A program made the position numbers and the translations under genes. DNA of 64,000 nt from Geitlerinema sp. PCC 7407 (lineage in GTDB: Bacteria > Cyanobacteriota > Cyanobacteriia > PCC-7407): assembly GCF_000317045.1 (NCBI RefSeq), contig NC_019703.1, forward strand, positions 4,410,934 through 4,474,933, in the 5' to 3' direction. Positions within the stretch are counted from its first letter, which is position 1. Each line of letters opens with the position of its first letter. Below the pieces are notes generated by a model that worked only from the letters and a program-made list of their open reading frames with translations, ran no database searches and was not told the origin of the DNA. Of the stretch, positions 15,549 through 18,240 are shown in pieces.

Positions 15549-16598
15549 CTAGGACCCGTCCCGCAGTTTGTAACCAAACTTCATATTAACCACGATGGAG
15601 GTGTCTTGGATCTCTGGCGGAAACGGGGGAAAGGGCGCAGCGGCCTGCACCGCCGCGATCGCCCCTTCGTCGGCATTCGCTAGGCCCGACGACTGGGCCA
15701 CCTCCGCCGAGAGCAGCCGCCCCGACGCATCAACGGCAAAGCGCACGACCACTTGACGAGAAATGTCGAGCTGGACCTGATCCCAGTGCTGATTGATTTG
15801 CTGATTGACCCGGTTGACGTAGCTCCCCACGGCTTGGTCTGCCATCGCGTCTACGCTGGGTTTTCCGGGCGCTTCCCGATCCGCGGACGGTGCGCCATCG
15901 AGCCCCTGCCCCCCAAAGGCCTGATCCGTCTGGCTGCTTTCATCGCCGTTCTCGGCGCCAGTTTGGGCTGGGCTGGGGGGTGCCTCTGAGCTGGGCGACG
16001 CTTCTGGGCTGGGGGGTGCTTCCGGGGACGCAGGGGTCGCTGGCGACGGGGAAAGGGCGGGCGATCGCGGGTCGGTAGCGGGATTGGCCTTCAGAGCAGG
16101 CACCTTGGGGCGGGGGGAGGATGGCTCTTTGGGGGCCTTCTTCGCGTTTGTGTCGAGGGATTTGAGGCTTTTATTTTGAAGGGAGCTGCTGGCGGAAGCC
16201 GCTTGGGGCGAAGGCTCTGGCGCTGGCGGGCTGGGAGCAGGCGGCGGTAGGTCTGGTAGGGGTGAGATGGCCTTGGGTGCGGGCGAGGGTGCGCCTTGGC
16301 GCGGCAGGTTCGGGGCGCCGGTGGTGACGGGCTGCTGGGGTCGGGGCGAACCGGCGGCGGTGGCATCGGCGATCGCCCGGCGTGCCGTAGGTTCCGGCGG
16401 CTTCTGGGGGGCCTCCTTGGGCTCCAGATACACCACCTCGATGGGCTCTGGTGGCTGCTCGGCCTGGCGACGGTGCCAGTAGACCCCGAAGCCCGCGATC
16501 GCCCCTGTGTGCAGCACCATCGCCATCGCCAAATAAAACATCAGGCGATCGCCCGAGCAGACCCCCTTTTGGGCGCGATAGGTGCGTGCTAGCTTCAT
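15549..16598 (-). CDS. TonB-family energy-transducer-like protein
   Basis: This is a 349-aa protein with a TonB layout. A short cytoplasmic basic start comes first, then one membrane anchor LMFYLAMAMVLHTGAIAGFGVYW at about residues 18-40. A very long Pro/Ser/Ala/Glu-rich periplasmic spacer runs to about residue 255. The C-terminal TonB domain is YVNRVNQQINQHWDQ ... VVVRFAVDASGRLLSAEVAQSSG ... AVQAAAPFPPFP, ending in KFGYKL. Families of this kind couple the proton gradient of the inner membrane to outer-membrane receptors. The ATG at 16598 is chosen because GAGGAAG lies 9 nt upstream; an ATG at 16622 lies before that site. No exbB, exbD or receptor gene is in the window, and it may instead be a structural TonB-domain protein. 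Confidence 0.87.
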   Translation of the reverse strand: MKLARTYRAQKGVCSGDRLMFYLAMAMVLHTGAIAGFGVYWHRRQAEQPPEPIEVVYLEPKEAPQKPPEPTARRAIADATAAGSPRPQQPVTTGAPNLPRQGAPSPAPKAISPLPDLPPPAPSPPAPEPSPQAASASSSLQNKSLKSLDTNAKKAPKEPSSPRPKVPALKANPATDPRSPALSPSPATPASPEAPPSPEASPSSEAPPSPAQTGAENGDESSQTDQAFGGQGLDGAPSADREAPGKPSVDAMADQAVGSYVNRVNQQINQHWDQVQLDISRQVVVRFAVDASGRLLSAEVAQSSGLANADEGAIAAVQAAAPFPPFPPEIQDTSIVVNMKFGYKLRDGS

Positions 16599-16929
16599 AT
16601 CCGCTGGCTTCCTCGCTGCCATTGCCTGTGCCAGTTCTGACCGCCTCGGGCTTGGGGCAATGGATGAATGCTCTATTATCCACGCATTTGGGAAAAGCGA
16701 ACCAGGGACAGCCCTCGCCCTGGGGGGACAAGGTTTGGTAAGATCGGCGAAGTCGCGGGCAGGCAACCCGAGACTCTAAACGGACGCCACCGATCGACCC
16801 TGCGATCGCCCTTGCGCATCATCTGGCCGATCAAGCGTCAACCCCCGAGGCTGTAGCCTGGATGCGCCTCGCTACGGGTGCCAAGAGGATTTCTGTCGTT
16901 TCACATTCGCCAGTCTTTACATAACTGCC
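16599..16929. other. 331-bp divergent region between tonB-like gene and petN
   Basis: No gene is apparent. The segment contains the upstream regions of the TonB-like gene (minus) and petN (plus). TTTACATAAC at about 16916-16925 could contribute a -10 element for petN but lies very close to the ATG. No good -35 box was identified. Confidence 0.35.
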
Positions 16930-17019
16930 ATGGATATCTTGACGCTGGGTTGGGTTGGGTTGTTGACCGTCTTTTCCTTCTCCATCTCGATGGTGGTTTG
17001 GGGCCACAACGGCATGTAA
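16930..17019 (+). CDS. petN: cytochrome b6f complex subunit PetN
   Basis: PetN is a 29-residue single-helix subunit needed for assembly and stability of the cytochrome b6f complex in the thylakoid membrane. It reads [20 protein letters not shown] followed by MVVWGHNGM. The start MDILTLGWV and the end MVVWG-x-NG are diagnostic and the length is exactly that of the family. It is followed after 6 nt by another small membrane-protein frame with which it probably shares a transcript that ends at the hairpin at 17192. Confidence 0.96.
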
Positions 17020-17025
17020 GGCACC

Positions 17026-17163
17026 GTGGAAATTTCGCCCTATATCGTTTTGGCTACCGCAGCGATCGCCCTTCTGGTCGTGGTCACCGGCGGCGTGAGC
17101 TATCTCACCTATGCCGAATGGCGCGATCGCCGTCGCCAAGACCGAGAGCGACGCGGACGCTAG
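17026..17163 (+). CDS. 45-codon single-helix membrane protein after petN
   Basis: This is a GTG-initiated frame of 45 codons starting 6 nt after the petN stop. It reads VEISPYIVLATAAIALLVVV then TGGVSYLTYAEWRDRRRQDR and a final short basic tail ERRGR. One membrane helix (about residues 6-26) is followed by a strongly basic, hydrophilic tail with a positive-inside pattern. It lies between petN and a strong terminator, so it should be on the petN mRNA. I do not recognise the family. It could be an assembly or stability factor for the b6f complex or just a small membrane protein. The layout, coding-like composition and HIP1 use argue that it is real. Confidence 0.6.
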   Translation: MEISPYIVLATAAIALLVVVTGGVSYLTYAEWRDRRRQDRERRGR

Positions 17164-17191
17164 CCAAAACTCACAAAACCAAAGACCTCTA

Positions 17192-17222
17192 CAAAGCAGC
17201 CCGCGCGGGCTGCTTTGTTTTT
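17192..17222 (+). terminator. rho-independent terminator of the petN transcript
   Basis: There is a perfect 26-nt palindrome at 17192-17217 (arms CAAAGCAGCCCGC and its complement) followed directly by TTTTT. It lies 28 nt after the stop of the 45-codon frame and fits a classical intrinsic terminator for plus-strand transcription. Confidence 0.9.
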
Positions 17223-17313: not shown

Positions 17314-18240
17314 CTAGGCCGCGCCTTGGCCGCCTTGGCGCTTCAGCAAGAAAGCGCCGCCGAGACCCACAAGGCCCAGCAGCAGCGAGGGCTCAGGCAC
17401 GTCTTGGGGCGGTACATCGCCCTGGAAGGTCACTTCGTAGTTGCCCGTGTGAGAGAGCCGATCGCCCCGCTCCACCAGACCAGACTGGGTCGCATTGAAG
17501 CTATAGAGCAGCTGAGAGGGCCCGCCATTGTAGGCAACCTTGACCACTTCGCTGGCCTGGATCGTGCGGCCCGAAAGCTGCGACTTCAGGTTATTAGCGA
17601 GAAACTTAGCGTTGTTAGGCACGCTGCTGTCATTGAGGAAGCCATCAATGCTTTTCGTAATCAGCGAGGTGGCATTGAAATGGCCCGCCAAGCCGATGCG
17701 GACCAGGCCGCTGCTGTCTTGGTTGACGTAGGAAATGTTGGGGTCGCTAAAGCGCTGGAAGCCGCCGTAGTTCTTGAATACGTTGAACGCGAAACCCTTG
17801 ATGTCGTTGGACAGACCGCCCAAGCCGTTGTTGTTGAGCGCTGCATTGAACCACACCTGGCCGAAGGTGCTGCTGCCGACCGGCGAGAGCCAGTCACTGA
17901 GGGTCAGGTTGCTGAGGGTGATGCCCTTGCCGCCCAGGGTGCCGCTCAGGCTGGTGACCTGGTTGAAGTTAGCGCCGGGCTGCTCACTGCTGGCAAAAAG
18001 CTCGACGTTGCCGGTGGGGTTGCTGCTGTCGCCGGTGAGTGCCGACTGGACATTGGCAGACGTGTTGGGCACCAGGAAGGTGTTGGTGCCGTCGGAGCCG
18101 TAGGTGAGGTAGTCAGAGCCGCTGACCACTGGATTGGCCAGGGTGCCTGCGGTGGCGGGCGTCGCTGCGATCGCGGCAGTGCCCGCGAGAGCGATCGCCG
18201 AAAAACCCATCATGAGAGTCTGAAAAGATTTAGTGACCAT
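17314..18240 (-). CDS. PEP-CTERM sorted extracellular protein
   Basis: This is a 308-aa exported protein. The signal peptide (residues 1-31) ends near ATPATAG. The C-terminus carries the PEP-CTERM sorting signal VPEPSLLLGLVGLGG, a hydrophobic helix, then the basic KRQ. In exosortase-bearing bacteria such proteins are cleaved and placed on the surface or in exopolysaccharide. The middle is rich in Asn, Ser and Gly (NISYVNQDSSGLVRIGLAGHFNA). The whole looks like the NF038130-type cyanobacterial PEP-CTERM proteins, which is a recollection I cannot test here. The start at 18240 gives a proper signal peptide. It has its own terminator and is probably monocistronic. Confidence 0.88.
   Translation of the reverse strand: MVTKSFQTLMMGFSAIALAGTAAIAATPATAGTLANPVVSGSDYLTYGSDGTNTFLVPNTSANVQSALTGDSSNPTGNVELFASSEQPGANFNQVTSLSGTLGGKGITLSNLTLSDWLSPVGSSTFGQVWFNAALNNNGLGGLSNDIKGFAFNVFKNYGGFQRFSDPNISYVNQDSSGLVRIGLAGHFNATSLITKSIDGFLNDSSVPNNAKFLANNLKSQLSGRTIQASEVVKVAYNGGPSQLLYSFNATQSGLVERGDRLSHTGNYEVTFQGDVPPQDVPEPSLLLGLVGLGGAFLLKRQGGQGAA

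Follow-up and report, generated by a model that had tools for sequence, protein, structure and literature searches.

What is encoded by the 45-codon frame directly behind petN in the stretch of Geitlerinema sp. PCC 7407 DNA analysed here (the window, 64,000 nucleotides), and does its product belong with cytochrome b6f, the complex of its neighbour, or with another part of the photosynthetic apparatus? A sequence-only reading had proposed a small photosynthetic subunit or assembly factor, with an implied tie to cytochrome b6f. Two related questions are: (i) whether the frame is a gene at all; and (ii) in which genomes it has been lost, and together with what.

A one-helix protein encoded behind petN

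The petN gene, for cytochrome b6f subunit VIII (29 aa), lies at positions 16930-17019 of the forward strand and is recognised by Pfam PF03742 (E = 6e-17) and NCBIfam NF011331 (E = 3.4e-17). Six nucleotides separate its stop codon from the GTG that opens the frame, which runs on the same strand from 17026 to 17163 (TAG stop at 17161-17163), and a terminator-like hairpin of 12 pairs with a 4-nt loop follows at 17191-17218 (+), ahead of a short T run. The hairpin is absent from the output of a simple terminator scan; for a 42-nt piece the folding energy is -24 kcal/mol (z = -5.4). The layout is thus as the sequence-only reading had described it, and the 6-nt gap indicates that the gene very probably shares the petN transcript, as had also been claimed. 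The AAGG at 17018-17021 (+), which overlaps the petN stop codon and stands 4 nt before the GTG, may be a weak Shine-Dalgarno-like element. The end of petN and the nearest start of the gene overlap in one relative (L143), an arrangement suggestive of translational coupling.

The product (45 aa, MEISPYIVLATAAIALLVVVTGGVSYLTYAEWRDRRRQDRERRGR) has a single hydrophobic stretch with a basic tail after it. The stretch, residues 5-28 (17038-17109, +), is a predicted transmembrane helix that ends in the conserved TGG[VI]xYLT, and the tail opens with an EWRDRRR motif at the membrane edge (codons 31-37; 17116-17136, +). An AlphaFold2 model built from an alignment of 37 sequences is one continuous helix over residues 5-44 (mean pLDDT 95.1), in agreement with the single helix and basic tail that had been read from the sequence. 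Basic protein ends sit on the cytoplasmic side of the membrane (the positive-inside rule), and by this rule the short N-terminus would face the lumen or periplasm, with the Trp-Arg tail at the cytoplasmic membrane surface. The small Pet subunits have a topology similar to this predicted one.

For the window protein, no Pfam or NCBIfam family scored over its cut-off, and neither it, nor a sequence from genus g28 (presumably Thermosynechococcus), nor either of two profiles found a credible PDB chain. A match of the A2 profile to NADH-ubiquinone oxidoreductase chain 5 (E = 0.0021) was dismissed, its best stretch being hydrophobic residues 4-22, and receptor matches in the PDB search (E = 0.21 and worse) were dismissed likewise. 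On the opposite strand the petN unit is flanked by genes for a proline-rich TonB-like protein (15549-16766, -) and a 308-aa protein with a PEP-CTERM-like end (17314-18240, -), both as judged by eye from the translations.

Family distribution, coding constraint and linkage to petN

One member of the family is already on record. In Synechocystis, petN (sml0004) occupies 160004-160093 and sgl0002 occupies 159812-159961 on the same strand (PMC5126843, Table 2); sgl0002 encodes 49 aa, starts 42 nt behind petN and is entered as 'Hypothetical protein'; a homologue is given for strain 6714 but for neither Arabidopsis nor E. coli (PMC5126843). Among our genomes, G217 (genus g44) has a frame of exactly 49 aa, opened by GTG, after a gap of exactly 42 nt. 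Our guess is that g44 is Synechocystis, and sgl0002, matched by position and length, is very probably the form of the family in that organism. The window gene joins this family by position, length and core motif, TGG[VI]xYLTxxEWRDRRR, which is found across ORFs of about 45-50 codons behind petN. Norf4 (PMC5126843) is a different small protein.

In the accessible text of PMC4770689, Sgl0002 has one predicted hydrophobic domain, its gene adjoins petN, and it falls in an expression cluster of 43 genes, among them 15 for photosystem II, 8 for photosystem I, 3 for cytochrome b6f and 12 for phycobilisomes. Neither PMC5126843 nor PMC4770689, as far as their accessible text goes, gives Sgl0002 a function, and a literature search of the same reach found no functional study. 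Because PetG, PetL, PetM and PetN are likewise not among the proteins identified in the proteomics of PMC9958174 (accessible part), missing proteomic evidence says little. The hypothetical protein sgl0002 and its expression alongside photosystem genes were thus on record before this analysis; to these we add its conservation across the class, evidence that the frame is coding, the natural knockouts and the case of tail loss, all described below.

A search with the window protein matched all 59 class-level genomes, its own included, at E ≤ 1. With a profile of 12 sequences at E ≤ 0.01, 374 of 388 genomes of the cyanobacterial class matched, a count that takes in the weak match (E = 0.0018) of a decayed copy in G383; in the high-quality subset the figure was 326/334. 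A phylum-wide draw gave matches at E ≤ 0.001 in 180/386 genomes, every one of the 180 with the same class label, and none in the 14 listed genomes from other classes; the listed genomes without a match are these 14 and 6 of the same class, a further 186 being unlisted. Eleven of the 14 class genomes without a family match also lack a PetN match over cut-off, which makes assembly gaps likely. The other three have petN. G353 retains a remnant of the gene behind it; in G260, which is 78% complete, the PetN match covers positions 1-21 only; and in the draft G271, a member of a family in which the gene is detached in some genomes, a hairpin follows petN directly (by eye). In further searches the drafts G398 and G619 were each without either gene. 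The idea of a gene carried by cyanophages was rejected, as there was no relative among 65 pattern-matching stretches in viral_contigs.

The constraint was measured over a 31-codon block and 59 independent pairs, pooled from those of the 157 distinct sequences in which the Trp motif is present (144, divergent tails having been left out beforehand). In frame, dN/dS is 0.364; the two other forward frames give 0.885 and 1.579. The reverse-strand frames of the same block give 1.15, 0.465 and 1.63, the value of 0.465 being expected because third positions coincide there. Substitutions at codon positions 1, 2 and 3 number 374, 248 and 612 in the 59 pairs, and the dN/dS of petN itself is 0.114 (33 pairs having petN). 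Across the 157 distinct sequences, which take in one decayed remnant (L196) and both UCYN-A forms, Tyr26 is present in 157, Leu16 in 153, Gly23 in 149 and Thr28 in 153 and, within the tail, Trp32 in 151, Asp34 in 153 and Arg36 in 152. In one locus (L207:2046-2210, G396) the conserved tail motif bears an in-frame insertion (RDARARASHARRLRDQ), by eye a small palindromic repeat inside the coding region.

The weak Shine-Dalgarno and the GTG start would suit an untranslated ORF whose conservation reflects RNA or chance. Such a reading is scarcely credible against the in-frame constraint, the tyrosine present in every sequence, the largely conserved WRDRRR across the class and the retention of the gene after it has moved away from petN; judged on its sequence evolution, the ORF is near certain to be a real protein-coding gene. 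Among candidate starts, taken as the nearest in-frame start in each of the 157 sequences, GTG is commonest (GTG 82, ATG 67, TTG 8). That part of the expectation that the gene is easily overlooked holds, but sgl0002 had already been listed as a hypothetical protein.

Linkage to petN is strong. In all 30 petN-centred loci (the best 30 of 284 petN-bearing genomes), the frame is found no more than 200 nt downstream of petN and in the same orientation. A frame not conserved behind petN, or a lack of coding constraint, would have counted against the sequence-only reading by its own terms; neither was seen. Loci of genome_contigs fetched by the protein have petN at most 300 nt upstream in 62/80 cases (the best 80 of 213 confirmed relatives), and no petN was found within the locus in the other 18. 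In three further locus sets, which overlap in that they share genomes, the gene is within 500 nt of petN in 28/30, 24/26 and 15/20. It also sits directly behind petN in L150 and L151, which we take to be the two Gloeobacter chromosomes, and the pairing is therefore probably ancestral. In another locus (L212; G117:C4:528900-530700) petN is flanked by two identical copies of the gene within an exact direct repeat of 373 bp, a recent duplication or an assembly artefact.

Relocated copies are found in six contexts; the family of each neighbour was assigned from one or two representatives. A transglutaminase-like gene is upstream in 14 of the 18 detached genome_contigs loci (best 80 of 213 relatives); of the remaining four, two are flanked by psb27 and rpsO-PAM68, and the others follow a gene for a CpeS-type lyase and crcB, respectively. 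Other searches found the psb27/rpsO/PAM68 context again in L006 and L171, and rpsO-PAM68 only in L174. The plastocyanin gene petE is about 50 nt upstream of the detached copies L153 and L155, and likewise upstream of L154, with masked bases between. In L156 and L157 the copy is convergent with ribBA, with menB upstream in the former and a phosphatase gene in the latter; menB serves the quinone of photosystem I. By a tally made after the fact, three of the six contexts are photosynthetic (petE, psb27/PAM68, cpeS), that of ribBA is mixed, menB being present in one locus of the pair, and the other two contexts are not photosynthetic. The transglutaminase-core neighbour was noted in L066:1197-2888 and 13 further detached loci, mostly of filamentous cyanobacteria, some with an ion channel gene downstream.

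Genomes that have lost photosystem core genes

The genomes were searched for PetN and cytochrome f as markers of cytochrome b6f, and for PsaA/PsaB and CP43/CP47 as markers of the photosystems. In the family that holds G353, 45 of 50 genomes match at E ≤ 3.2e-5, and the exceptions are G353, G383, G423, G424 and the draft G398. By comparison with PMC11131595, we identified G353 as the Epithemia turgida spheroid body, G383 as the Rhopalodia gibberula spheroid body and G347 as Rippkaea orientalis PCC 8801; G423 and G424 are taken to be of the same kind as G353 and G383, given a common genus label and common gene losses.

G353, G383, G423 and G424 belong to one genus and have intact PetN and cytochrome f; their PsaA/PsaB and CP43/CP47 genes are missing or broken into fragments, and the gene behind the intact petN is decayed in every case. 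The lesions differ: in G383 a degenerate frame of 43 codons is still open, with VKWRSYYLTNVELHNRHRRDRDKK at the place expected for the end of the helix and the motif; in G423 the open stretch is 34 codons long and stops before YLT. Two other genomes of this genus, G347 and G421, have the gene intact. The gene therefore went with the photosystems and not with the b6f genes, and the pattern suggests that its loss tracks the former. A small b6f subunit would be kept wherever the b6f genes are kept, and this gene decayed beside intact petN and petA; an auxiliary factor of the photosystems would be kept with them and lost without them, which is what is seen, in one clade of loss and one of partial loss. 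The endosymbiont genomes thus act as natural knockouts, and they make a role with the photosystems more likely than one with cytochrome b6f.

The partial loss is found in two small genomes of UCYN-A type, G389 (1.49 Mb) and G390 (1.44 Mb, presumably UCYN-A). Each has two full-length PsaA/PsaB genes and intact cytochrome f and PetN, and in neither was a full-length CP43/CP47 gene found. In UCYN-A, according to the accessible text of PMC4804200, genes of the photosystem II complex are absent and those of cytochrome b6f and photosystem I are highly transcribed. The frame of our gene is intact in both genomes and its helix keeps YLT, with EWRDRRR replaced. Between the two, dN/dS is 0.15 (one pair, with 13 synonymous and 12 non-synonymous differences), and the altered protein is therefore still under selection. 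An ORF of 347 aa from the CP43/CP47 family (Pfam PSII) is still intact at G390:C1:1021868-1022812, and a broken fragment is all that remains at G389:C1:1419307-1419600.

The small genomes L143-L145 keep a basic tail (SWKDKKR, DFKDKRR and DWKDKRR), in forms of the protein that are shorter and Lys-rich. From their size and their form of PetN, we infer that these three are Prochlorococcus-like. Prochlorococcus is not known to have phycobilisomes, and if the three genomes lack them too, the tail follows the presence of photosystem II more closely than that of phycobilisomes, within one clade. The endosymbiont genomes also give a separable prediction for the helix and for the tail.

Possible roles of the protein

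We consider it somewhat more probable than not that the window gene encodes an unnamed protein of one helix that assists the photosystems, as an assembly or auxiliary factor, rather than a subunit of cytochrome b6f. The protein would be made from the petN bicistron, starting at the GTG near the petN stop, and would act on the chlorophyll-binding photosystems while present transiently or below stoichiometry. Its helix would serve a step that is still needed with photosystem I alone, and the WRDRRR tail one that only the making of photosystem II requires. Co-translation and the division between helix and tail are, like the topology and the assembly role, what we infer from observations that are themselves direct: the gene, its conservation and constraint, its linkage to petN, the pattern of loss and the loss of the tail. 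In favour of a photosystem role are the near-universal presence in the class, the loss pattern, the tail loss in the UCYN-A type, the co-expression of sgl0002, some of the relocated copies and the absence from the PDB. There are also points against it. Each loss pattern is probably a single evolutionary event (one genus and one UCYN-A clade), and the decay, which is incomplete in G383 and G423, could reflect a general loss of photosynthetic electron flow. The co-expression cluster includes b6f genes, the linkage to petN would be explained at least equally well by a b6f role, the transglutaminase-like context (14 of 18 detached loci among the best 80 of 213 relatives) has no known photosynthetic role, and absence from the PDB is compatible with a loosely bound subunit.

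The general guess of a small photosynthetic subunit or assembly factor fits the tie to photosynthesis; the b6f membership that it implied does not fare as well. A b6f subunit or assembly factor co-expressed with PetN would explain the position behind petN in 30/30 petN-centred loci, the size class shared with the small Pet subunits and, in one family, a place behind petE, whose plastocyanin accepts electrons from cytochrome b6f. We nevertheless regard it as quite unlikely, because the gene has decayed in 4/4 genomes with intact petN and petA but without intact PsaA/PsaB or CP43/CP47, the UCYN-A type has lost the tail with both b6f genes intact, no PDB match is credible, and petN was not found near the gene in 18 of 80 loci (best 80 of 213). 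A structural tie to the complex is thus not borne out by the decay or by the structures. A tuner of electron flow from b6f to photosystem I, through cyclic flow or b6f-PSI contact, would be needed only where photosystem I works beside b6f; it accounts for retention in the UCYN-A type (PsaA/PsaB and b6f genes, no CP43/CP47), for decay where PsaA/PsaB are gone and for the petN and petE neighbourhoods. It is still an unlikely explanation, as it accounts neither for the disappearance of the conserved tail along with photosystem II nor for the psb27/PAM68 neighbourhood.

As a tether that holds the insertion machinery (ribosome, Sec/YidC or chlorophyll synthase) at the membrane, the protein would help to make chlorophyll proteins and be lost when they are lost. 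This role would be in keeping with a basic Trp-Arg tail at the predicted cytoplasmic face, with rpsO and PAM68 as neighbours in one clade and with decay only where the searched chlorophyll proteins are gone. The putative interaction overlaps with the role as a photosystem assembly factor and is inseparable from it here; as an explanation of its own we judge it improbable.

Known small proteins offer likenesses to the factor that we favour and several differences. PsbN, Psb34 and other one-helix photosystem proteins act in assembly and are not stable subunits. They are small one-helix membrane proteins like that of the window, for which we propose a similar role, but the window protein has no significant match to their families. 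Models of PsbN and PsbZ are not listed for it at E ≤ 1, and the best values among 12 family members are 0.38 for PsbN and 0.0022 and 0.0024 for PsbZ/Ycf9; kinship with either was rejected, the similarity being weak, at the level of transmembrane segments and confined to some members. PetG, PetL, PetM and PetN resemble the window protein in having one helix and fewer than 50 aa, and its gene adjoins petN; however, there is no significant sequence match to any of them, no chain of a solved structure corresponds to it, and its gene has decayed where petN and petA are kept.

NdhP and NdhQ are small one-helix cyanobacterial proteins of similar length, but in Synechocystis they are encoded by separate genes, sml0013 and norf6 (PMC5126843). 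The profiles match no small NDH-1 subunit in the PDB at E ≤ 10, and an identity with NdhP or NdhQ was rejected on the basis of PDB chains. The plant b6f assembly factor DEIP1 likewise has a single membrane span and acts in the assembly of a photosynthetic complex, but it has 201 aa and a DUF1279 domain; it was rejected as a relative, since its authors, in the accessible part of their report, find no homologue in cyanobacteria.

More speculatively, and with rather low probability, the protein might be a two-part assembly adaptor that goes back to the ancestor of living cyanobacteria, with a helix for photosystem I biogenesis and a WRDRRR tail that docks photosystem II or the machinery of the ribosome and chlorophyll insertion; UCYN-A, having lost photosystem II, would have shed the tail only. 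If so, the gene would be among the last unnamed core genes of oxygenic photosynthesis. It is near-universal in the photosynthetic cyanobacteria examined, with one Tyr that never varies and a Trp-Arg motif that hardly does, yet it matched none of the curated family models searched.
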